A stretch of 64,000 nt of DNA from assembly GCA_947066105.1 (NCBI GenBank), contig CAMSYM010000013.1:1-64000 (forward strand), written 5' to 3'. Position 1 is the first letter of the stretch; each line of letters opens with the position of its first letter. Both the position numbers and the translations under genes were made by a program. The notes under the pieces were generated by a model. It was not told the origin of the DNA and searched no databases. It worked only from the letters and a program-made list of their open reading frames with translations. Of this stretch, positions 18,310 through 29,685 are shown piece by piece. The DNA is from an uncultured Clostridia bacterium (GTDB lineage: Bacteria > Bacillota > Clostridia > Christensenellales > Pumilibacteraceae).

Positions 18310-18783
18310 TTACCGCTTGGCGTATACTACTTTGGTTATGCACGCCGATATGCCCATTACAAGCATTGCTACTAACCCTATCACGATCGACGCAAGCGCG
18401 TTTCGGCAAACCCCGATCATGTACGGCTCGTTGATATGAAGCTCCGAACCCCAAGTGAGCGCCATTTCGTATACGGAAGCTTTTGCCGCATATACGACCG
18501 TCAAGCACAGGAAAACACATACGAGCACAACGCACGCGTCTACCGCGATCCCGAGTATTTTTTTGACCGTGCCGTCCGCGGCAAACATGGGTATCAATAT
18601 GACCGCCAACGACAGGATTATCGTCGTTATGCCGAAGCCTATTACGTACGGAAGCGACGCAAACTGCATTTCGAAGTAACCGTAGCAACCGTTATAAGCG
18701 ACTGTGAACAAAACCATTGCGACCGTCGCCAATATGCATGTTGCCGCCGCACCGATGGTAGTTACGTTTATTTTAATCTTCAT
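18310..18783 (-). CDS. four-helix membrane protein coupled to the GH3 gene
   Basis: No known family recognised. It has 157 residues with four predicted membrane helices (~10-32, ~45-67, ~75-100, ~128-150) and a short extracellular stretch between helices 3 and 4. The start at 18783 overlaps the end of the GH3 gene by 11 bp. A GGAGG site sits inside that gene, so expression is coupled. A small accessory membrane protein joined to a membrane-anchored glycosidase could help export, anchoring or uptake of the product; that is only a suggestion. Confidence 0.75.
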   Translation of the reverse strand: MKIKINVTTIGAAATCILATVAMVLFTVAYNGCYGYFEMQFASLPYVIGFGITTIILSLAVILIPMFAADGTVKKILGIAVDACVVLVCVFLCLTVVYAAKASVYEMALTWGSELHINEPYMIGVCRNALASIVIGLVAMLVMGISACITKVVYAKR

Positions 18784-21700
18784 TTTCGACCTCCGCGGAA
18801 TCGTTTTCTTTTTTCTTCAAAAGTATGCTTACCGTGATATACCCCGCAGCACCGAGCGCCGTGAGCGTTGCCGTTACGGTGATCGCCGCCGTCAAAACAT
18901 TATCGTACCACGTTCTGAAAAATACGAGTTTGGAGTTTTTGGCATATCCGTTTGTGACGTTGGAATTAAGGAAGATGTATATCGCGCGGTGTACGGCATC
19001 TTGTATCGCCTGTTGCATATCCATGTCTTCGGCAAGCCCTTCCTCTGTAAACTCGCCCCAGCCGTTGATACCGCCCGTGATGTTATTTGTCGAGCTGGCG
19101 GTAAGCATGCCGTCCGTTCCCGCTATAAGACTGTCGCGGGGATTCATATAATACGCGCTCACCATATCGGTAACGCAGAATCCGTTGAAATCCCATTCTT
19201 CGCGCAGTATACCTGTGATAAGCCCCTTATGCGCGCTCGTAAACGTAGCGCCGGCACGGTTGTAAGCAGTCATTACGGCAAGCGCGGTCTTGTTTTCGAT
19301 AGCCAATTGGAAAGCGCGCAGTTCGCATTCTCTCGCACGTTGCTCGCTCATGAACGGCGCCAAGCCTTTTCGGTTGGCTTCCGTATCGTTGAACGCATAA
19401 TGTTTAAGGCAGGTTATAAGACCGTTGCGTTGCGCTTCGGCGGCAAAATCGTTCGCCATATGCGCAAGATGAACGGGATCTTCCGAATAGTACTCGTGAT
19501 TACGCGCGTTGTACGGAGTACGATGGATATTAACGCCGGGTCCCCAAACTTCCGCTACTCCCGCCCAAAGCGCTATCATGGACAGCACTTCGCCGGATTT
19601 TTCCGCCATTTCATGACTGAACGTCGCACCGATCACGGGCATCGTGGGTAGCGGACGCATTTCGATACTGCCGTACGGATCGTCGTCGGGGCAATCGTAT
19701 TCTTTGTTCGCCGTATTCCAATCGGTTTTTAACGCGCCCCTTTCTCCGTCGTAGCCTACCGGACCGTCCGTCGTTTTAAATGCGGGCGACTGAATGGACG
19801 GTATCGCGTCCCAATCCTGTCCGCCGCACTGCGTAACGCACTGTATAGCTTCTTTTAACGTGACCTGTTCGACAAGCGCCATTATGCGCGGATCGTTATA
19901 TTCTATCCATTCGCCTTTTTCGGGCTTCATTCCCGCAAACGTGTATTCGGTGTCCGCTCCCCATACGACTTTTTTGCCGTCGTTGTCCGTTTTATGCACT
20001 TCGTACAAAGCGCATCGCAATCCCGCGTTCATTGCATCGGTATAATTCAAGCCCGTATACGTTTTGGGCCATGTGGTCTGCCAATTCGAACGCGAAAGTT
20101 CGGTAATTTCCTCTTCGAAGTTGGAAAGCTCCATATCTTGCAGTTGATTTTCTATAACTTCGCCGCTCGCCGAATATAGCATTTCGACCTTTTCCAAATT
20201 ATGTTTTGATGCTTTTGAACTCACGCCCGCATAGTCCATACCGTCGGCTGTACTTTTGCCCTTGGCGGCAAGCACATTGTTCAATGCGTCGTGCGCCCCG
20301 TTGCCGACCGCAAACACGTATTCGCCCGCGTCCAAGACGTACGCGCCTTTCGTGTTGTGGTGCGCGTAGTTTTTATCGTACGACGCAAAGTATTGGAAGT
20401 CCGCCGTTATAGTCAGCTTTTTCGCATCGCCGGGATTCAACACGCCTGTTTTGTCGTAACCTATGAGTTGTATAGCCGATTTTTCCAATCCGTTTTCGGT
20501 ATACGGCGTATTTACATAAAGCTGAACGACGTGCTTGCCTGCGGTATCGCCCGTATTGGTGACCGTAACTTCCGCAGTTACCGTTTTGTCGGAATCGTTT
20601 ATTTTAATGCTGTTGATGCTTTCCGTAAACGTGGTATACGACAGTCCGTATCCGAAAGACGCCACCACTTCGTCGGCATAGTTCCACTTTGTTGCGGACG
20701 CTTTCGCCGTGTCTTGATTGGGCGCTTTATGCGCTACGGACGCATTTCCGCGACCCGTAACGCAATCGTAATAGCGGGATTCGTAATAGCGATACCCGAT
20801 ATAGATCCCTTCCGCTTCGGGCATATACCATGCGCTCATTTCGCTGTTAGTAACCGTTTTGTCGTTTAGATCCGCATTGGCAAAAGTAAAAATGCCGTAA
20901 TTTTGATTTGCGGCGGACACGCTCGATCTTGCGGCATATGTATCGACCATGCGTCCCGACGGATTTACCGTGCCGTCGAGTACTTGCGCTACCGCTACCC
21001 AGCCGTATGTACCGGGCAGCCCCGCCCAAAGCACCGAGTCCGCTTCATACTCGCCGTTTTCCTCGAAAAGCTCGGGTATATCCATTGCCGAATCGGAATT
21101 GACTATCACTACCACGTTATCGTAATTCTTTTTGGCAAATTTGATGGTTTCCATTTCTTTTACGGCAAGACCGAGTACGTCGTGATCTGCATCGAATTGA
21201 CCGTCCACCGCCTTACCTGCGTCGCCCGGTAAGTAATACGCGTTCTCTCCGCCCTGTCTCGACAAAACGATGATCGCGGTCCCGCCTTTTGTTTTATCGC
21301 CGATACCGACGTCTTGCGGCGACGATTCGTTAAGAGTAAATCGACCGTTTTTCAAACTCGAAAGATTGGTCGTTTGCGACACGCCGCCGCCCCAAGGATT
21401 GGCTGTTTCGGTATAGCCGTAACCGGGCGCTTTTTCGTAAGCCGCTTTTGCCGTTGCGTCGATCTTCATGCCTTGATCGGTCAAAGCTTTTTCAAACGAT
21501 ATTTTTTCGCTTACTACGGGCATCGATCCCATAGTCCCGCCGTGGAAAACGTTGTACGCCGCCGTACCTAAAAGAGTGACTTCGCTGTTTTTTGCGAGCG
21601 GTAAAGACTTGTTTTTGTTTTTCATCAAAACGATGCCTTCGCTCGCGATCTCTATCGCCGCCGCTTTTTGATAATCGTACATGCCTTTTGTAGTGGTAAG

Positions 21701-21925
21701 ATCGTAACCGGTCTCTTGCTTGCTCTTTACACGGAAGTTATACAGATCGACGTTCGGGTCGACGTCTTCCGTTACTATGCCCGAACTTTGCGTGCCGAGC
21801 TGAGCGTCGATCCATGAACGATATGTACCGACTACGGACGCAGTGCCCACCGATACGGCAAGCAGACCCGCGCATATGCCGGTCACGCCGCGAACGATGT
21901 TTTTTGTCCTTTTTGTGACTTTCAT
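18773..21925 (-). CDS. membrane-anchored GH3 glycosidase with permuted domain order
   Basis: A 1050-residue extracellular GH3 enzyme, probably a beta-glucosidase or similar. The usual order is reversed. The alpha/beta sandwich comes first (~60-400, EGIVLMKNKNKSLPL; putative acid/base Glu227 in RQGGEN), then a fibronectin-III-like part (~440-560), and the (beta/alpha)8-type catalytic barrel last (~660-980). The barrel has GPGVNIHRTP, CLKHYAFND and nucleophile Asp920 in CVTDM. Reversed GH3 enzymes are known from ruminal Butyrivibrio and Ruminococcus. Hydrophobic helices at both ends (~10-30 and ~1010-1035) suggest anchoring. A strong AAGGAGG site precedes the ATG at 21925. The promoter carries a 21-bp-spaced LytTR-type repeat, and the kinase/regulator pair lies directly upstream. 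Confidence 0.9.
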   Translation of the reverse strand: MKVTKRTKNIVRGVTGICAGLLAVSVGTASVVGTYRSWIDAQLGTQSSGIVTEDVDPNVDLYNFRVKSKQETGYDLTTTKGMYDYQKAAAIEIASEGIVLMKNKNKSLPLAKNSEVTLLGTAAYNVFHGGTMGSMPVVSEKISFEKALTDQGMKIDATAKAAYEKAPGYGYTETANPWGGGVSQTTNLSSLKNGRFTLNESSPQDVGIGDKTKGGTAIIVLSRQGGENAYYLPGDAGKAVDGQFDADHDVLGLAVKEMETIKFAKKNYDNVVVIVNSDSAMDIPELFEENGEYEADSVLWAGLPGTYGWVAVAQVLDGTVNPSGRMVDTYAARSSVSAANQNYGIFTFANADLNDKTVTNSEMSAWYMPEAEGIYIGYRYYESRYYDCVTGRGNASVAHKAPNQDTAKASATKWNYADEVVASFGYGLSYTTFTESINSIKINDSDKTVTAEVTVTNTGDTAGKHVVQLYVNTPYTENGLEKSAIQLIGYDKTGVLNPGDAKKLTITADFQYFASYDKNYAHHNTKGAYVLDAGEYVFAVGNGAHDALNNVLAAKGKSTADGMDYAGVSSKASKHNLEKVEMLYSASGEVIENQLQDMELSNFEEEITELSRSNWQTTWPKTYTGLNYTDAMNAGLRCALYEVHKTDNDGKKVVWGADTEYTFAGMKPEKGEWIEYNDPRIMALVEQVTLKEAIQCVTQCGGQDWDAIPSIQSPAFKTTDGPVGYDGERGALKTDWNTANKEYDCPDDDPYGSIEMRPLPTMPVIGATFSHEMAEKSGEVLSMIALWAGVAEVWGPGVNIHRTPYNARNHEYYSEDPVHLAHMANDFAAEAQRNGLITCLKHYAFNDTEANRKGLAPFMSEQRARECELRAFQLAIENKTALAVMTAYNRAGATFTSAHKGLITGILREEWDFNGFCVTDMVSAYYMNPRDSLIAGTDGMLTASSTNNITGGINGWGEFTEEGLAEDMDMQQAIQDAVHRAIYIFLNSNVTNGYAKNSKLVFFRTWYDNVLTAAITVTATLTALGAAGYITVSILLKKKENDSAEVENED

Positions 21926-22007
21926 TTAAGCCTCCTTATTCTTTGGGATCATTCCCGATTAGCTTAAACTCAGTGTAACATTATTACCCGCAAAATTTTT
22001 TCCGTGA

Positions 22008-22038
22008 CAAAAATTGCGCTCATCTTGGCAAAAACTGT
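22008..22038 (-). promoter_or_regulatory. 21-bp-period direct repeat in the first GH3 promoter (LytTR-type site)
   Basis: On the minus strand ACAGTTTTTG (22029-22038) and GCAATTTTTG (22008-22017) start exactly 21 bp apart, two turns of DNA, the spacing used by LytTR regulators. The inner repeat overlaps a TTGTCA -35-like box (22005-22010), with TAATAA (21981-21986) 18 bp further. Confidence 0.55.
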
Positions 22039-22088
22039 AACGTACACAGCCGTACGGCGACCGCGCGATACGACCGCGGCGAATAGCT

Positions 22089-23357
22089 CTATCGCGCTAT
22101 CGGCATAACGATATCGAGCATGAACCTATCGTCGCGCACCGTCACCGTCATATTGCCGCCGTATTTTTGCGCAATAAAGCGAATGCTTTTAAGCCCGAAC
22201 CCGTGATTGATCTTATCCGATTTCGTGGTCGTCGGCAAGCCGTCGTCCATATCGTAAACGACTGCGCAATAGTTTTCCACGTGTATGCTCAAAAGCGCGG
22301 CGCGACGGTGTACGCGCAACACTATGAACCGTTTGCTTTCGTCGACCGTTTTTTCGTGTTCTATCGCATTGTCGAGCGCATTGCCGAAAAGCGACACGAC
22401 GTCGCTCTTATGCATAAAGTCGAGCGCCTTACCGTCCACCGACACCGACAGATCTATGCCGTACTTATTGCACAAATACGATTTTTCGGTAAGGGTAACG
22501 TCCAACGCTTTGTTGCCCGTGTTTGCCGTTTGTTCGTACTTTTCCACTGCCGAACGTATCTCGTCCAGACTCTCGCGCTCGTCGCCGAGCGTATCCAGCC
22601 CCGCGATGAAATGTTTGAGATCGTGCGCTTTCATGTTGATAATGTTGACCGAACGCTTATATGCGTCGTACATCTTGCTCTCGCCCGCCAGCACGCTTTC
22701 GAGTTTTAGATTTTCGTCGTGTCTGTTCTTGTATATCACCAGTCCGAACTGAACGACGAGCGCGAGAAAATCGCACAGAATAAGCGGCGGCGCGGTGACC
22801 CACACCTTGTCCAGTTCGTACGCCTGCAAAAGGAATTGCATCAAATAACAAAATACGGCGGACGCGATCGCGATGGCAAAAATACCGCCGCTCGCAAGGC
22901 TTATCTTTTCTCGGGTTATTATTTTGCGCACAATCAGCATATATCCCGCCGCATACACGGCAATCATCACGCCTACCGAAATAAAAAACCAGCCTATGTC
23001 GTTAATATTCTCCGCAAACGGCAGATATATCAAAAGCTCAATGTTGTGCGCCAAGTTTTGCAATAACTGCGCTCCGATACAGCAAAACAAAATGTCCGTG
23101 AACTTATTGTCGAAACAAAACGCGCACAGACCTAACGACAGCATGAAAATTATGAACGATGTAAACCCGACCACCACTTTCAACATAAGGTTGGTCAGTA
23201 TCACGGAAATAAGCGCATATACGACGATACCTATCGCCGCACGCCAAGCAAACCCTTTTCGCCGTGTGAATACGGGAAAGAACAACAATTCGGCTATCAG
23301 TATTTGCGGTATGTACCCGTGAGCGACGCTTATATAAAAAAGTTCGGCGAAACTCAC
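22089..23357 (-). CDS. GHKL (AgrC-like) sensor histidine kinase 1
   Basis: A 422-residue membrane kinase of the quorum-sensor type. The N-terminal ~210 residues hold about six membrane helices. A linker helix carries the phospho-accepting His in KAHDLKHF. The HATPase_c_5 (GHKL) domain has the N-box NALDNAIE and the G-box HGFGLKSI. Kinases of this type usually sense small peptides or other extracellular signals and pair with LytTR regulators. The start is GTG at 23357, with AGAGGG about 9 bases upstream, 3 bp after the regulator's stop. No agrB- or agrD-like gene is visible nearby, so the signal is unknown. The GH3 promoter lies just downstream. Confidence 0.9.
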   Translation of the reverse strand: MSFAELFYISVAHGYIPQILIAELLFFPVFTRRKGFAWRAAIGIVVYALISVILTNLMLKVVVGFTSFIIFMLSLGLCAFCFDNKFTDILFCCIGAQLLQNLAHNIELLIYLPFAENINDIGWFFISVGVMIAVYAAGYMLIVRKIITREKISLASGGIFAIAIASAVFCYLMQFLLQAYELDKVWVTAPPLILCDFLALVVQFGLVIYKNRHDENLKLESVLAGESKMYDAYKRSVNIINMKAHDLKHFIAGLDTLGDERESLDEIRSAVEKYEQTANTGNKALDVTLTEKSYLCNKYGIDLSVSVDGKALDFMHKSDVVSLFGNALDNAIEHEKTVDESKRFIVLRVHRRAALLSIHVENYCAVVYDMDDGLPTTTKSDKINHGFGLKSIRFIAQKYGGNMTVTVRDDRFMLDIVMPIAR

Positions 23358-23360
23358 GAG

Positions 23361-24068
23361 CTATACCCTCTCCCCGAGATACGCAGCGAGCTTGTCCAAA
23401 AACGCCGAACGGTAAACTCGGCTCAACGGCAAAGTTTCTCCGCCTATCGTGACTCCGTTGTTATCGTAACCGTCGACGAACGCAAGATTGACTAACAGCG
23501 AACGGTTTATCGCTACAAAACCGTTATTCTCGAAAAATGCTTTGATCTCGTCGAGCGACGCGCGCATTTTACGATCTCCGCCCGTCGTGTGAAAAAACAG
23601 ATAATGCTTGACGCTTTCTATATATCGGATATCGTCGACGGGCATTTTGCGCACGCCGCCGGCACAGCTTATGACAAACGATTTGGGCGCTTTGCTCTCT
23701 ATATGCGCGACGGCGCGGGCGAATTTTATATTAAACAATTCTTGTTCGATCGGTTTGACCAAAAAATCGAACGCATTGACGTCGTACCCGTTTACCGCAT
23801 ACTGCGCGAGCGTGGTTATAAACATCAAGCACACCCGACCGTCCACCGCGCGCAACCGCTTTGCGGCTTCCATGCCGTTCATATGCGGCATGGCTATATC
23901 CATGAGTACAAGATCGAACCCACCGTCATAGTCGCTTATAAATTCCATACCGTCGGCAAACGACGTTATTTCGAACACGCGTTTTGTTTTCGCGCCGTAC
24001 TCGGCTATATAGTTGCGAAACGTATCGTCCCACTTTTTTTCGTCTTCGACAACGGCTATTTTGATCAT
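23361..24068 (-). CDS. LytTR-family response regulator 1
   Basis: A 235-residue AgrA/LytR-type regulator. The receiver domain (1-~120) has acidic Glu-Asp-Glu at 9-11, phospho-acceptor Asp in LVLMDIAMP, and the conserved Lys in LVKPIE. The LytTR DNA-binding domain (~135-235) contains DDIRYIES, NGFVAINRSLLVNL and LSRVYRS. The ATG at 24068 is preferred; a GTG in frame at 24077 is possible. The gene starts its own operon, with the GHKL kinase 3 bp downstream. The likely target is the 21-bp direct repeat in front of the neighbouring GH3 gene. Confidence 0.9.
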   Translation of the reverse strand: MIKIAVVEDEKKWDDTFRNYIAEYGAKTKRVFEITSFADGMEFISDYDGGFDLVLMDIAMPHMNGMEAAKRLRAVDGRVCLMFITTLAQYAVNGYDVNAFDFLVKPIEQELFNIKFARAVAHIESKAPKSFVISCAGGVRKMPVDDIRYIESVKHYLFFHTTGGDRKMRASLDEIKAFFENNGFVAINRSLLVNLAFVDGYDNNGVTIGGETLPLSRVYRSAFLDKLAAYLGERV

Positions 24069-24101
24069 ACGTCGCACACATCCCGATCAAGCTTTTTGAT
24101 A

Positions 24102-24130: not shown

Positions 24131-24195
24131 TGATATCCGATTTTTCGATACGCAAAAACCGCGTGTTACGCGCCGCTTTGCATACGGACCGAAAA

Positions 24196-25626
24196 TTATT
24201 TCGCAACGCGTAGTCTCTCCGAATATTGCATCCAAAAATAATCGGTACACATCGCGCCGTACTTGATGGACGGAACGTAGATCAAAACATCGCGGTTTGC
24301 GCCGCTAAAAAGATCGCCGCCCACGCTCGGCAAGCCGTCGTTCGCTCCCAGCTTCACCGATAAATAAACAGTTTTTAAGTTGGCGCAATCCGCAAAGATA
24401 CCGTCGTCGAGCGCCGTTATATTATCGCCTATTTCTATCGTATGCGCCGAACTCCCGCCGAACGCGCCGCGCTTTATTTTATAAACTTTTTTGCCGTTAT
24501 ACGAGCGCGGAACGCGCAAAACGTCCTTATCCTTTGCTTCGGGTTTGACCGCGACTATCGCCCAACCGCCGATGTCATCTTCGTATTCGTACAGATCGGA
24601 ATCCGTATCGTCGCCGACAGTTTCGTCATCGTCATGCTCCGCGCCCGACGGCGGCAATATCTCTATATCGGTCACGGAATCGTCGCCGAGCAAATGTTTA
24701 AGATCGCCTATCAATATCTTGGTATTGTAAGGAACGCCGCTATTATTCAAATGATAATTGCTGTCGTAAAAATACCCTTCCGACATGATATGATCCTCTA
24801 TGTTCCCAATGATCTCGCATTCCATCTTTTCGCGTAACTTTTCGTATACTTCTAAACGTTTTTCGTACACGCTGTCCGCCGTCAACGCCGCACCGTTCAT
24901 GGGCGGGAAAGAGAAACAAAACCGTGCGCCGACTTTGCGAACGCTCGCCGCATAATCGTTAACGAATTCGATAAACTCGCCGTCTATCATATCGATATTT
25001 ATATCTATCATATTCGCAGGCAAATACAGATCGGGCATTATATTGTACGGTCTGTCATAGACGTTGTCGCCGTATTCGTTGAACGCGGCGCGCGAATACG
25101 CGTTTGTCGGGTCGGGAACGCCGTTTTTGTTCAATGATTTTTTAGCGGTGATATAATCGGGCAATTCGCAAAACAGTCCCGCCCATTCCGAAACGGGAAT
25201 CTGCCATATCATGCTTCTGTTCGCTTCCAAGACCTGCACGGTTATTTCCGAATTGGTATACATCGAATACGCCTGCTTATCCATTTCGGGGGCGAACACC
25301 ACTATATCGCCTTTGCTTATGCCCGACCGCGTAAGATCGAGCGTCGTTTTACTGCCCAGCGCGGCGTATAATCCCATATTGACAACAGGCATACCCAGTT
25401 CTCGTTCAATAACCGCACTGTCTATGCCGAACGCCATGCTCGACCCGCCTACAAGCACTATTTTTTCTCCGTCGGTGTCATGGAGTATCTTATATTTATC
25501 CGCCATCGCCGCCAGATACGTGCGTCCGTATACGTCGGGGATATTCGCGGCATACAAAGACACGCCGACTATCGGAACGACAAAAACAATTATCAAACAT
25601 ATCACGGTCAAAATAATTTTTTTCAT
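24196..25626 (-). CDS. membrane-anchored SGNH-hydrolase-like protein with C-terminal leucine-rich repeat
   Basis: A 476-residue exported protein: N-terminal anchor helix (~4-25), an SGNH/GDSL-like domain (~50-310) and a BspA-type LRR_5 segment (~370-455, IKRGAFGGSS, GIFADCANLKTV). The SGNH marks are the block I motif LVGGSSMAFG with a Ser nucleophile, a block II Asn-Met-Gly (VVNMGLY) and a late D-SNY-H (DSNYHLNNSG) matching the catalytic Asp/His. Proteins of this fold partner MBOAT acyltransferases in polymer O-acetylation (AlgX/AlgJ, DltD, PatB). An acidic, Asp-rich linker (~325-350) joins the domains. It is the last gene of a four-gene operon and starts 8 bp after the MBOAT stop. Confidence 0.82.
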   Translation of the reverse strand: MKKIILTVICLIIVFVVPIVGVSLYAANIPDVYGRTYLAAMADKYKILHDTDGEKIVLVGGSSMAFGIDSAVIERELGMPVVNMGLYAALGSKTTLDLTRSGISKGDIVVFAPEMDKQAYSMYTNSEITVQVLEANRSMIWQIPVSEWAGLFCELPDYITAKKSLNKNGVPDPTNAYSRAAFNEYGDNVYDRPYNIMPDLYLPANMIDINIDMIDGEFIEFVNDYAASVRKVGARFCFSFPPMNGAALTADSVYEKRLEVYEKLREKMECEIIGNIEDHIMSEGYFYDSNYHLNNSGVPYNTKILIGDLKHLLGDDSVTDIEILPPSGAEHDDDETVGDDTDSDLYEYEDDIGGWAIVAVKPEAKDKDVLRVPRSYNGKKVYKIKRGAFGGSSAHTIEIGDNITALDDGIFADCANLKTVYLSVKLGANDGLPSVGGDLFSGANRDVLIYVPSIKYGAMCTDYFWMQYSERLRVAK

Positions 25627-25633
25627 TTCGCAC

Positions 25634-27118
25634 CTAAAATTGAAAATAAATAAAACTGTTGCCGAAGCCCGTTTGCGACGCCAAATATACCCAAACCACC
25701 GCGACCAACACCGTCAATAACGTGTATGCGAATATGCCGTACTCGCCCTGCCCGACATATGCAACTCGGCAATAGCGCACACCCTCCAAACGATCGATAC
25801 GTTTGGATACCGAATACAACAAAAATATGCCCGTCAAACCGAACAGGAACGCAGTGCCGCCGATCTTCATGGATTCGAACGTACTCTCGATATATGTAAA
25901 ACTCAACGTCCAATCGGTGAACAAAGCTTTCAGCAGTATTCCGCATTCGATTATGCTGTTCGCTCTGAAAAATATCCATGCAAAACATACCAGCATAAAG
26001 GTTATCGCTTTTTGCCAAACGGGCAACATTGCCGAATCTTCGAGCTTGATCTTTTGACGCAGACGCTTGCGCGGATCGGACGTTATATTGCCGATAATTT
26101 GATAAAACCCGTGCAACGCGCCCCAAATAACGAACGTCCAATCGGCGCCGTGCCAAAGCCCGCTCAGCACAAACGTTATAAACAGATTAAACAAATGCCG
26201 CGGCTTTGCGCATCTGTTTCCGCCGAGCGGAATGTACACGTAATCACGGAACCATGTCGACAAAGAAATATGCCACCGTCCCCAAAATTCTTTTATGCTC
26301 CGTGCCGAATACGGATTATCGAAATTTTTCATCAGATCGAAGCCGAGCATTTTCGCCACGCCTATCGCAATATTGGTATAACCGTCGAAATCGCATAATA
26401 TCTGCACGGCGAACAACACGGTCGCAAGCGCCACCCCCAAACCGCTCGCATTGGCGGGGTCGTTATAAACCGCATTGACGGCAATACCTATCGTGTCGGC
26501 GATAACTATCTTTTTGAAAAAGCCGACTACCGTAAATTTCAAACCGATGCGCAAATTTTCGGAATTGAATTTGCGTTCGGTCTTTAATTGCGGCAAAAGA
26601 TTTTCGGGGCGCTCGATAGGTCCCGCCACCAGTTGCGGAAAAAACGAAACGAACAACGCATAATATCCGAAATGCCGTTCCGCTTTGATCTTGCATTTGT
26701 ACACGTCTATCACGTAAGACAATGTTTGAAAAGTATAAAACGATATACCGACGGGCAATAAAACGTTCAACCCGAAATCGCTCATGGGTATACCGAAGCT
26801 TCTTATCAACGCGCTTATGCTCGACGACAAAAAATTAAAGTACTTAAAGAAAAACAAAACAAGCAAACTGCTTGCTACCGCAATTATCATAGCGGTCGTT
26901 TTTATCGCCTTTTTATCGGTTTTTTCGATTATCAATCCTGCCGCATACGATATCACGGTAGTACCGAGTATCAAAAACACCAAGTACGCATCCCACGACA
27001 TGTAAAAATAATAGCTTGCGATCAAAAGCGCTATCCAACGAAATCTATGCGGAACAACGTAGAACAAGATCGCTACAACGGGAAAAAATATCAAAAACGC
27101 AACGGAGTTAAACAGCAA
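25634..27118 (-). CDS. MBOAT-family O-acyltransferase (AlgI/PatA/DltB type)
   Basis: A 494-residue membrane enzyme with about 11 hydrophobic segments. It moves acyl (usually acetyl) groups from a cytosolic donor across the membrane to an extracellular polymer. Conserved sequences: SYYFYMSWD near the start, PVGISFYTFQTLSYVIDVY, FFPQLVAGPIER, the FWGRWHISLSTWFRDYVYIPLGGN block, and the catalytic His in LSGLWHGADWTFVIWG. The start is a TTG at 27118 with GGGAGG upstream, inside the end of the small membrane gene it overlaps by 11 bp. It is not a dlt operon because dltA and dltC are absent. The SGNH partners lie on both sides. Confidence 0.93.
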   Translation of the reverse strand: MLFNSVAFLIFFPVVAILFYVVPHRFRWIALLIASYYFYMSWDAYLVFLILGTTVISYAAGLIIEKTDKKAIKTTAMIIAVASSLLVLFFFKYFNFLSSSISALIRSFGIPMSDFGLNVLLPVGISFYTFQTLSYVIDVYKCKIKAERHFGYYALFVSFFPQLVAGPIERPENLLPQLKTERKFNSENLRIGLKFTVVGFFKKIVIADTIGIAVNAVYNDPANASGLGVALATVLFAVQILCDFDGYTNIAIGVAKMLGFDLMKNFDNPYSARSIKEFWGRWHISLSTWFRDYVYIPLGGNRCAKPRHLFNLFITFVLSGLWHGADWTFVIWGALHGFYQIIGNITSDPRKRLRQKIKLEDSAMLPVWQKAITFMLVCFAWIFFRANSIIECGILLKALFTDWTLSFTYIESTFESMKIGGTAFLFGLTGIFLLYSVSKRIDRLEGVRYCRVAYVGQGEYGIFAYTLLTVLVAVVWVYLASQTGFGNSFIYFQF

Positions 27119-27353
27119 GGGTTTTATCCTCCCGTTTATCGATGATAAAAACCGCCGCCGACAAAACGGCTATGCCGAGCGCCGTATCGAACAAACTCGA
27201 CCCGCCCATCAACATCAGTGTTACGTACGACGCCGTACACAGCGTAGCAAGCACAAGCCATACGAAATCACAGCGGCATTTATAATACCGCATCAAATAC
27301 GCGCCGCCGAAAGCGGCGAGCAAAAACAATACAGCCGTATAATTGACGTTCAT
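27108..27353 (-). CDS. small membrane protein of the acyltransferase operon
   Basis: An 81-residue protein with three hydrophobic segments (~6-22, ~28-48, ~52-70) and a charged tail (DKREDKTLAV). I do not recognise a family. It begins one base after the stop of the large SGNH/LRR lipoprotein gene and overlaps the MBOAT gene by 11 bp, so it is translated as part of the same unit. Small membrane proteins often accompany MBOAT acylation systems (for example DltX), which suggests an assembly or regulatory role here. Confidence 0.75.
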   Translation of the reverse strand: MNVNYTAVLFLLAAFGGAYLMRYYKCRCDFVWLVLATLCTASYVTLMLMGGSSLFDTALGIAVLSAAVFIIDKREDKTLAV

Positions 27354-27354
27354 A

Positions 27355-29613
27355 TCATATCACCCCTTGCGCGACCGCATCGCTCAACAGTTCCGTAAAT
27401 CTTTTCGTATATACTTTCGTACCTTCGGTGGACGGATGATTTATCCAGTCCGAAAAACAGTGATACGGCATAGCCGCATCGTCGATCGATCCGAGCACGG
27501 GAAATTCCAGCAGGCTTTTAAGTTCGGCTTGAAAGGTCGTTCTGAGTTCGACGTTTGCCGTATCGTCGTAAGCTTTATATCTGTATACGGGCGGAAAAAT
27601 AAAACAAACGCGCACGCCGTTATCCATATGTTTTTGCGCCCATTCGTTGATAACGGGTACGCCCGATAAAAACGTCATGCTCGGATACAGCGTGGAAATA
27701 TTCTCGCCGAGCGCGCCTTCTTCGGCGTTCGGACGGTAATACGTATAATCGCCGTGTTCGTTCATCATGTATCGGTTAGGCGACGATATAAAACTTCTGT
27801 TATTATCCAAGTCGTCGGCACGCGTCGCAAAATAATCGGGCAAGACCGATAAAATATCGTTCCTGAATCCCGTTTCCGCAAGGTCGAACTCTTCGTACAC
27901 GTCGTAATTGCTTTCAAAATGCCTGAGCCTTCCCGGTTGCTCCGAATTGACTAATTGCATGCCGCGGTCCGTCAACCATAAATGCTCGTAATTTTCCAAC
28001 GCCAATACCAATATGTCGCCCGGATTCAAATAGTCGTTTACCAGATCCATCAACAATCCCAAGCCGTAACGCGCATGCACGCCCATATGGATAACGTCGT
28101 AATTTTTAAAATACTCGTCTTCGTAAAACATTTCGGAACACATTCCCTTAGCCAACGAGCATCCCGATAAAGTGACTATTTTGTTTCTTTTACTCGTTTT
28201 GACGAGCATTTGTTTATCGACCAAATTCGTTTCGAGTATTCTGTCGTATATTCGTTTCCCCGCCGAATTGATATGTAACTTATTTATATCGGTACCAGAC
28301 AATGCCGACGCACTCAGCTCGCGCAGGCTATCATATAAATAGATCTCGCTCATGTTCGGCATATTCGCGAACGCGAGATCGCCGATCCTTTCTATATTGG
28401 TGTTGGTGACTACGGACGAAACGTTTTTAACGCCTTTCAATGCTCCGTCGGCAACGGCAAACACCTTTTTATCTCGATACGTATCGGGTAAAACTATCTC
28501 GGTGATATCTTCCCGATCGTTTACGTACGCGCTTATCGCATAACCCGTTTCGCCTTTATGATCGGTATATTCCGCAAACTCGAAATCATCCGTCGGCGTA
28601 TGTTTTTTGAATTGCGCATACATGACGGTATCATCGGAAGGCATCGCTATCATTGCGCCGAGTGCGTGCCGCTCGCCGCTCCCGTCCGCCGCCGTATTCC
28701 ACGATTCCAGAGTGTAGTCGTCATACCGCCACATATCCAAACCGTTTTTCAAATAAACAAACTCGCCCGCTTGCGCGTAGTCGGCGCAAATCGCGGATTG
28801 CGCTACCTGCGCGCCGTTTAGATCGTATAAAAGCAAATTGAACTCGTCGCCCACGAACTTCGCGGTTATTGCCGAATCGCCGCAAACTTTATACTCGTAT
28901 TTATACGTATCGTAAACGTAATTACCGTCGATCTCGATATATATCAGTCTATACTCGGCATCGGCTATACACTCGACGCTCAAAGTATCGCCGTAACGAA
29001 CGATATTGCTTTCACTGTCGGTAATTATTTCTCCGAACTCCGGCTCATCGACGGTCACTACGCACTCCCGCCCCAAGCAAACGGCTTTCATCGAAATAAA
29101 CTCGTCGTATTCGTCGACGACCGTTACCGACCCGTTAGGCGCTCGGTCGAAATCGTAAGCCGCTCCGTTGATATACAGCTCTTCGATAACGTAATTTTCA
29201 TACGGCGTAAAACAAAACTCGGCGAGCTGTCCGTAAACAGCGCACCCCCCCCCGATCGAACGAACTTCCACCGTGCCGTTTTCCATATACGCGATATCGT
29301 CCGTCTTTCTCGCTTTAAGATCGACCGTGACCGAAAACGCCACGTTATCCACGATCAACTTGCCGTCCGAGAATCGCCCTGCGCTTGATTTGACGAACTC
29401 GTAGCCGCTGTCTATCTTCACGTCGAATTCCGCAGTCTCGCCCGGAAGCACGCGCACTATGCTTTCGCTGTTCACGGTATACCCTTCGCCCGACGGAAGC
29501 ATGACCGTATAATAAGCGTCTTTTTCATAGCCGCCGCATCCCGTCAACACAGCCGCAACGGCGAGCAAAACAAGAAAAGTGGAAATCGATAAAATATACC
29601 TTATTTTTCGCAA
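27355..29613 (-). CDS. lipoprotein with leucine-rich repeat and C-terminal SGNH-like domain
   Basis: A 752-residue surface lipoprotein (lipobox LTGC, Cys25). Parts: beta-rich modules resembling InlB B-repeats (~40-330), a BspA-type LRR_5 stretch (~350-450, IERIGDLAFANMPNMSEIYL), and an SGNH-like domain (~470-750) with LSGCSLAKG at block I and D-WIN-H near the end. This is the reverse of the domain order in the gene at 24196. The start is TTG at 29613, with AGGAG 7 bases upstream and a promoter whose transcript begins near 29650; the upstream in-frame ATG has no ribosome site. A run of nine G at codons 121-123 (29245-29253) could shift the frame. First gene of the acylation operon. Confidence 0.8.
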   Translation of the reverse strand: MRKIRYILSISTFLVLLAVAAVLTGCGGYEKDAYYTVMLPSGEGYTVNSESIVRVLPGETAEFDVKIDSGYEFVKSSAGRFSDGKLIVDNVAFSVTVDLKARKTDDIAYMENGTVEVRSIGGGCAVYGQLAEFCFTPYENYVIEELYINGAAYDFDRAPNGSVTVVDEYDEFISMKAVCLGRECVVTVDEPEFGEIITDSESNIVRYGDTLSVECIADAEYRLIYIEIDGNYVYDTYKYEYKVCGDSAITAKFVGDEFNLLLYDLNGAQVAQSAICADYAQAGEFVYLKNGLDMWRYDDYTLESWNTAADGSGERHALGAMIAMPSDDTVMYAQFKKHTPTDDFEFAEYTDHKGETGYAISAYVNDREDITEIVLPDTYRDKKVFAVADGALKGVKNVSSVVTNTNIERIGDLAFANMPNMSEIYLYDSLRELSASALSGTDINKLHINSAGKRIYDRILETNLVDKQMLVKTSKRNKIVTLSGCSLAKGMCSEMFYEDEYFKNYDVIHMGVHARYGLGLLMDLVNDYLNPGDILVLALENYEHLWLTDRGMQLVNSEQPGRLRHFESNYDVYEEFDLAETGFRNDILSVLPDYFATRADDLDNNRSFISSPNRYMMNEHGDYTYYRPNAEEGALGENISTLYPSMTFLSGVPVINEWAQKHMDNGVRVCFIFPPVYRYKAYDDTANVELRTTFQAELKSLLEFPVLGSIDDAAMPYHCFSDWINHPSTEGTKVYTKRFTELLSDAVAQGVI

Positions 29614-29656
29614 TTCTTTACTCCTATCCGAATATTCGACATAACAGAACATATTG

Positions 29657-29685
29657 ATTTTACATTAAACCACAAAAGATGTCAA
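29657..29685 (-). promoter_or_regulatory. promoter of the O-acylation operon
   Basis: TTGACA (29680-29685) and TAAAAT (29657-29662) with a 17-bp spacer on the minus strand. The start near 29650 gives a leader of about 37 bases to the TTG at 29613. Confidence 0.75.

Follow-up and report, generated by a model that had tools for sequence, protein, structure and literature searches.

A conserved four-gene MBOAT set from a Clostridia bacterium, with two SGNH proteins carrying leucine-rich repeats at opposite ends and a likely role in envelope acylation

Positions 1 to 64,000 of contig CAMSYM010000013.1, from an uncultured Clostridia bacterium of the family Pumilibacteraceae (GenBank assembly GCA_947066105.1; this whole stretch is referred to here as the window), carry four genes on the minus strand, running from 29613 to 24196, that we call A, B, MBOAT and D. 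Judged by comparison of sequences across related loci, A-B-MBOAT-D is a conserved system of its own, and it is likely to be an accessory machine for acylation of the cell envelope. The operon is a variant of MBOAT-SGNH acylation: the general kind is known, and for the arrangement seen here, in which two SGNH proteins carry leucine-rich repeats (LRRs) at opposite ends, we found no description in the open-licence literature searched. The junctions between the four genes are a 1-nucleotide gap, an 11-nucleotide overlap and a 7-nucleotide gap, and the set looks like one transcription unit. Its features are as follows (positions are those of the window).

27355..29613, minus strand: A, a lipoprotein with a beta-rich N-terminus, an LRR module and an SGNH domain (752 residues; TTG start, alternative ATG at 29652)
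28249..28596, minus strand: LRR module of A (residues 340-455), BspA-type fold in the predicted model
27358..28248, minus strand: SGNH domain of A (residues 456-752), SGNH fold in the predicted model
28159..28161, minus strand: codon for Cys485 of A, at the SGNH nucleophile position in the profile alignment
27108..27353, minus strand: B, a membrane protein of 81 residues with three hydrophobic stretches, the conserved fourth component
25634..27118, minus strand: the MBOAT acyltransferase (494 residues), with a WHG motif that includes His323 (PF03062, 98 bits, cut-off 27)
25637..25654, minus strand: FIYFQF, the C-terminal acyl-tyrosine shuttle motif of the MBOAT
24196..25626, minus strand: D, an anchored protein with an SGNH domain followed by LRRs (476 residues; predicted local distance difference test score, pLDDT, of the model 89.6)
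24685..25536, minus strand: SGNH domain of D (residues 31-314), with Ser62 at 25441-25443, Asp288 at 24763-24765 and His292 at 24751-24753
24199..24606, minus strand: LRR module of D (residues 341-476), BspA-type fold in the predicted model

A preliminary description of this stretch, made from the letters alone, had proposed an O-acylation operon of four tightly coupled genes with mirror-image LRR fusions. The coordinates and junctions given above confirm the tight spacing, the acyl-shuttle C-terminus of the MBOAT together with its SGNH partners supports O-acylation, and the mirror-image fusions are backed by the predicted models of both proteins and by their conservation in dozens of loci. 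The SGNH folds that it assigned to A and D are likewise supported by the models.

The conservation of the set was assessed in a survey of 89 MBOAT loci, comprising the 80 best of 466 relatives from a query with the MBOAT, the window and nine loci of the same family (L078 was dropped as a copy of L113). Gene calls in the survey were mechanical, and a locus was counted as a system locus if it held at least one SGNH protein with an LRR. LRR-SGNH partners of this kind, and thus the system, are present in 47 of the 89 loci, a fraction that is no prevalence as the sample took the best 80 of 466 relatives; both A and D were found in 39 by the test used. Of the other eight system loci, two have a D that is cut at the contig end (L032) or a D-like protein in which no LRR was found by profile (L064), three have an A-like SGNH protein by the tree described below (L046, L057 and L119, the first of them also with an LRR by Pfam), L038 and L045 start at a contig edge, and the eighth is L079, described below. 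Note that lack of an LRR in the other 42 loci follows by construction; absence of B from them does not. A profile of B matches 45 of the 47 system loci, 10 of them outside the set from which the profile was built, and in the other 42 loci it matches no gene adjoining the MBOAT, the one match there (E 0.024, L089) lying more than 7 kb away. B was identified without reference to the LRR, and its occurrence follows that of the LRR loci.

Because A and D were named by domain order, the order in the named proteins is no test. The first SGNH gene 3' of the MBOAT encodes an SGNH-LRR protein in 44 of 46 cases, and the SGNH genes 5' of the MBOAT encode LRR-SGNH proteins in 42 of 43. A quick tree of the SGNH domains alone (support from the SH-like approximate likelihood ratio test, SH-aLRT, with no bootstrap) gathers all 45 D-labelled domains and none of the 46 A-labelled domains in one set (SH-aLRT 95). 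The partners remain side by side although their order varies: L114 and L117 have B, A, MBOAT, D, and L112, L113, L116 and L118 have MBOAT, D, A. These observations bear on the reading that the operon encodes an ordinary MBOAT-SGNH acetylation pair, with LRRs that are passive surface domains drawn from a genome rich in BspA-type repeats. We regard this as unlikely. The genome does give 109 LRR_5 matches, the LRR columns of D are less conserved than its SGNH domain (majority identity 0.47 vs 0.60), and the D SGNH domain is related to plain partners of other MBOATs that have no LRR and are about 310-360 residues long (L083 278, L075 276, L104 274, L110 250 and L099 208 bits); against these stand the coupling of gene position with the LRR end, the separation of the two orders in the SGNH tree, the way in which B tracks the LRR loci, and the fact that the LRR of A joins its SGNH domain almost directly (median gap 6.5 residues, vs 71 in D). 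(One MBOAT locus, L079, has a D-type SGNH-LRR protein beside the MBOAT with no A or B found; its record is titled Acholeplasmatales bacterium.)

D is built of an N-terminal helix, the SGNH domain, a linker and the C-terminal LRR module. In the profile alignment of the survey proteins, its nucleophile Ser, acid Asp and His are each found in 45 of 45 proteins. Because this triad is kept throughout and the nucleophile position of the window's A is occupied by Cys, the transferase of the system is probably D. The predicted model of D has a DltD-like SGNH fold, with DltD among the best matches and SGNH esterases among the closest; the LRR modules of A and D both have the LRR_5 fold, with TpLRR and 4oju as best structural matches. 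Though the folds are alike, the Pfam DltD family gave no match at E <= 1 for A, D or 16 further SGNH parts scanned, and A and D likewise had no match at E <= 1 to the AlgX-type family PF16822 or to the DHHW Pfam family. PF16822 matched weakly, and only in LRR-less partners (L075, E 0.012, and L104, E 0.037, among four scanned). The D proteins of L048, L050, L053, L066 and L068 are 731-959 residues long and have two or three LRR modules by profile.

A is the more variable of the two. Its lipobox is LTGC, and the lipobox pattern matched 34 of 46 A proteins; of the 12 outside the pattern, six are lipobox-like by eye (LPAC, LPSC, FPAC or LNGC) and six are cut or have an unsure start. The predicted model supports an SGNH fold, again with DltD among the best matches and SGNH esterases among the closest folds. 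The preliminary description had looked to a catalytic Ser/Asp/His in both SGNH domains, which stands for D, where the triad is canonical, and fails for the window's A, in which the block I Ser is absent and Cys485 takes its place. In the profile alignment of the survey proteins, 43 of 47 A domains have Ser as the nucleophile residue and four have Cys in its place (the window, L032, L112 and L116); of 46 residues at the acid position, 30 are Asp, 14 Asn, one Gly and one Glu, and the His is kept in 45 of 46. Majority identity of the SGNH domain is 0.44 in A vs 0.60 in D. Since the triad of D is complete in all 45 proteins while these positions vary in A and its identity is lower, A is probably a second SGNH partner with a drifting active site under weaker constraint, and D the conserved catalytic partner. 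A further possibility, to which we assign a low probability, is that one SGNH protein, with A the likelier of the two, removes acyl groups from the product as a de-O-acylase, in the manner of Ape1 alongside PatA/PatB. It would fit with the SGNH esterases among the closest folds of both models and with the PatA/PatB operon, which is described as including the esterase Ape1 (PMC12148441); the drift of the nucleophile and acid positions in A argues against it, as does the fact that A matches DltD as well as it does most esterases. (Tandem copies of A are present in L040, L041, L042 and L048, and L043 has a double A fused into one.)

The genome gives a single MBOAT match, that of the operon. Each of the 47 system MBOATs has F[IVA]YF[QS]F at its C-terminal end and contains the WHG motif. 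PatA is described as acetylating the invariant Tyr of its own C-terminal hexapeptide, and PatB as able to accept acetyl from such a peptide (PMC12148441). FxYxxF is also found in 42 of 43 other survey MBOATs, and because most non-system MBOATs thus share it, the shuttle motif is a mark of the general MBOAT kind and not of the LRR-SGNH system. B is probably a small membrane subunit that packs on the MBOAT. B was also considered as a DltX and rejected, because it has no FxYxxF and the MBOAT itself carries the motif.

We propose that the system works as follows. On the cytoplasmic side, acyl-CoA would supply the MBOAT with an acyl group, in the simplest case acetyl, which would be transferred to the Tyr in the enzyme's C-terminal FIYFQF tail, outside the membrane. 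D, held at the membrane by its N-terminal helix, would then move the acyl group from this Tyr onto Ser62 by means of the triad Ser62/Asp288/His292, and from there to a hydroxyl group on a polymer of the cell surface, for which an exported polysaccharide is the most likely candidate. The lipoprotein A may hold or present the acceptor, or may take a second transfer step, a division of labour like that between AlgJ and AlgX. The LRR modules of the two SGNH proteins would dock on the acceptor or on each other, and may, as the preliminary description suggested, guide acylation to a particular surface polymer or partner; B would probably sit against the MBOAT as its small membrane subunit.

The best clue to the acceptor lies in the neighbourhoods of related loci. 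In L048 and L049 the system stands directly 3' of genes for a glycosyltransferase, an ABC-2 permease, its ATPase and a Wzy_C protein, and in L051 a glycosyltransferase, an ABC-2 permease and Wzy_C are seen upstream of A. Because the system follows a glycosyltransferase, an ABC-2 exporter and Wzy_C in these three related loci, the neighbours point to an exported surface polysaccharide as the putative acceptor. The acceptors might instead be proteins, perhaps the cell's many LRR surface proteins, reached through LRR-LRR contacts, a reading that could draw on the many LRR_5 matches of the genome and on the finding of no polysaccharide genes among the scanned neighbours in the window. We hold this to be very improbable: polysaccharide export genes stand beside three relatives, and the known MBOAT-SGNH systems, as described, act on glycans or teichoic acids. 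(The genome has one Wzy_C protein, which is on another contig.)

Several observations weigh against an envelope-acylation machine in which D is the catalytic partner, A a drifting one and a polysaccharide the acceptor. The invariant residue after block II of D is Glu, not the Asn of classic SGNH enzymes (in the profile alignment, Glu114 is invariant in the region of the block III Asn). A Cys at the nucleophile position of A could still be active, and the quick tree sets the window's A on a long branch nearer to D, a join that may be false according to a warning of the tree program. An A-D pair in L120 has no MBOAT match in its 18 kb. Polysaccharide genes are found in only 3 of the 26 system loci with at least one neighbour scanned; the three cluster in the tree and do not include the window, and most other neighbours are housekeeping or unrelated genes. 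Finally, the LCP wall-polymer ligase family PF03816 was not found in the genome, which is 96% complete. (The A-D pair of L120, at L120:8224-11740, has no clear B; its genome, G042, has two further D copies beside MBOATs.)

Beyond the envelope-acylation reading, we put forward more tentatively that the system may represent a separate class of machine. Such a machine would pair a catalytic SGNH-LRR protein with a lipid-anchored LRR-SGNH protein whose site is relaxed or has a Cys, with LRRs that meet each other or a shared polysaccharide, and it would have a dedicated three-helix MBOAT subunit; in some relatives, an acid other than acetate would be charged by a ligase onto a carrier, so that Dlt-like activation would be combined with PatA-like delivery. 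In one genus of the family, a gene resembling acyl-CoA ligases lies in or next to the operon (L112, L113, L116, L118 and L121, by Pfam), and in two of these loci a phosphopantetheine carrier protein is encoded between the ligase and B (L113:10893-11141 and L118:6234-6560). The carriers score 23.3 and 26 bits against a Pfam cut-off of 20.8 and fall below the NCBIfam acyl-carrier cut-offs. The MBOATs of these carrier-bearing operons also have the shuttle motif. MBOAT/SGNH pathways other than Dlt are described as having no DltC-like carrier (PMC12148441).

In the window, neither a ligase nor a carrier gene stands beside the operon. The genome's single AMP-binding match is on another contig (L155:1075-3606, G000:C7); the protein resembles fatty-acid-CoA ligases, is 22-27% identical to the ligases of system loci, and does not have DltA among the 25 best of its 106 NCBIfam matches in this 96% complete genome. 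(Its gene adjoins that of an HGSNAT-type transmembrane acetyltransferase.) D-alanylation of teichoic acid by a Dlt system has, in our estimate, an almost negligible probability. In its favour are the place of DltD among the best fold matches, a score of 166 bits for the MBOAT against the DltB model, and the ligase and carrier genes of L113 and L118; but that score is below the DltB cut-off of 375 bits and the protein does not qualify as a DltB equivalog, the sole AMP-binding protein is of the kind just described, and the shuttle motif is part of the MBOAT itself, whereas in Dlt it is described as lying on DltX. We rejected the Dlt pathway on two of these grounds: no DltA-type ligase was seen in the genome, and the MBOAT falls far below the DltB cut-off.

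The system can be set beside several known ones. The peptidoglycan O-acetyltransferase PatA/PatB likewise has an MBOAT with a C-terminal acyl-tyrosine shuttle motif and an SGNH partner (PMC12148441); it differs in that the account given there mentions neither two LRR-bearing SGNH proteins nor a counterpart of B. The alginate system AlgI/AlgJ/AlgX/AlgF likewise has a single MBOAT, a pair of SGNH proteins that differ in role, and a fourth component. It differs in that LRRs stand here in place of the carbohydrate-binding module of AlgX, whose Pfam model does not match A or D, and in that B is a hydrophobic three-helix protein whereas AlgF is said to be without the membrane tether of AlgJ. By analogy, A and D may divide the work as AlgJ and AlgX do, with LRRs replacing the binding module. 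DltB/DltD/DltX shares with the system the DltD-like folds of A and D and a small membrane protein in the operon, but here it is the MBOAT that bears the shuttle motif, B is without it, no DltA-type ligase was seen and the DltB cut-off is not reached. PatA1/PatB1 and CcsH/CcsI of Gram-positive bacteria also combine an MBOAT with a partner of the SGNH superfamily (DHHW), again in Bacillota (PMC9487903, PMC7710045); they differ from the present system, which has no DHHW Pfam match and two LRR-bearing partners. BspA-type LRR surface proteins have the same LRR_5 fold, which here is fused to SGNH domains.

The preliminary description had called the locus the best candidate in the window for an undescribed system, and had allowed that its LRR fusions might be ordinary DltD-type partners. 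The latter is half borne out, as D is DltD-like in fold and related to LRR-less partners, but the four-gene set is by its recurrence a conserved system of its own. The former agrees with the literature covered: no open-licence paper was found that brings together MBOAT, SGNH and "leucine-rich repeat", and none of the papers listed was recognisable as an account of LRR-SGNH partners of an MBOAT. The word leucine is absent from the main text of an SGNH review (PMC9487903), and in a paper on extracellular acetylation (PMC12345273) MBOAT and SGNH occur only in the reference list. Acylation of the cell surface influences how well bacteria resist lysozyme and autolysins, how they are recognised by the immune system and how they form biofilms. 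The system would add to it a conserved acylation system with a new fourth subunit and with LRRs where AlgX has a carbohydrate-binding module, and some loci would join a ligase and a carrier protein to an MBOAT carrying its own shuttle. A and D would make a tractable pair in which to study acceptor choice by MBOAT-SGNH systems.

The system was seen mostly in records of gut Clostridia. Full-length D homologues occur in 9 of 74 genomes of the window's family, with four among the 20 genomes of its genus. Among 396 genomes sampled from the order, the D-SGNH profile gave matches at E <= 1e-10 in 17, and in 12 of these the open frame has at least 472 residues, a size that would accommodate LRRs. Among 398 sampled from the phylum, three genomes match: that of the window itself, and two in which the frames have 319 and 346 residues. 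In G016, a sister species whose genome is the nearest in the genus to that of the window (DnaJ-like protein 89%), DUF2232 is followed directly by a LytTR gene, the A-B-MBOAT-D block is missing from the site, and full-length D was not found. DUF2232 flanks the system in the window; the sequence retrieved around the systems of G004, G006 and G014 does not include it, and the DnaJ-like genes of these three genomes are on contigs other than those with the systems. Because the site is empty in G016 and the window's flanks are not found around these other systems, the comparison suggests an accessory unit at different sites, as judged from draft genomes. The regulator and kinase genes of G016 and the window are 97% identical in DNA, vs 81-85% for the upstream blocks and only 34% for the downstream GH3 protein (L178, G016:C6:13000-24000, compared with window 22100-24070), and recombination at the regulator/kinase site is therefore probable.

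The signals and genes that flank the operon are as follows.

29657..29685, minus strand: promoter-like site TTGACA-17-TAAAAT, 5' of A (11/12 match)
24160..24172, minus strand: terminator-like hairpin, 3' of D (weak evidence)
23361..24077, minus strand: LytTR response regulator, a neighbour outside the operon, with its own promoter-like site at 24130-24102
22089..23357, minus strand: GHKL sensor kinase, a neighbour outside the operon

Promoter-like sites number 23 in the region vs 13.6 expected, and a score of 11/12 is reached only at 29657..29685 and 24130-24102. The hairpin after D is weak evidence because 24 such sites were found vs 13.0 expected. The LytTR/GHKL pair was considered as a member of the operon and rejected, in view of its own promoter-like site, the terminator-like hairpin between the two, and the association of GHKL with GH3 genes: in the window's own genome (2.05 Mb), 19 of 20 GHKL matches have a GH3 place within 7 kb. 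(Thirty GH3 places were used, out of 32 GH3 matches; two in the same frame as another were omitted.) For these reasons, the pair fits a repeated regulator-GH3 cassette better than operon membership. Counter to this exclusion, five of the 47 system loci have the kinase nearby, compared with none of the 42 others; the five (the window, L112, L113, L115 and L116) are those of the window's family in which the LytTR/GHKL pair lies near the system. GH3 genes are found in six of the family's loci, and the genome itself has about 30 GH3 places. One copy of the sensor/regulator-GH3 cassette of this genome spans window positions 18773-24077. Its GH3 protein (18773-21925) has two domains in swapped order and, by eye, hydrophobic stretches at both ends.

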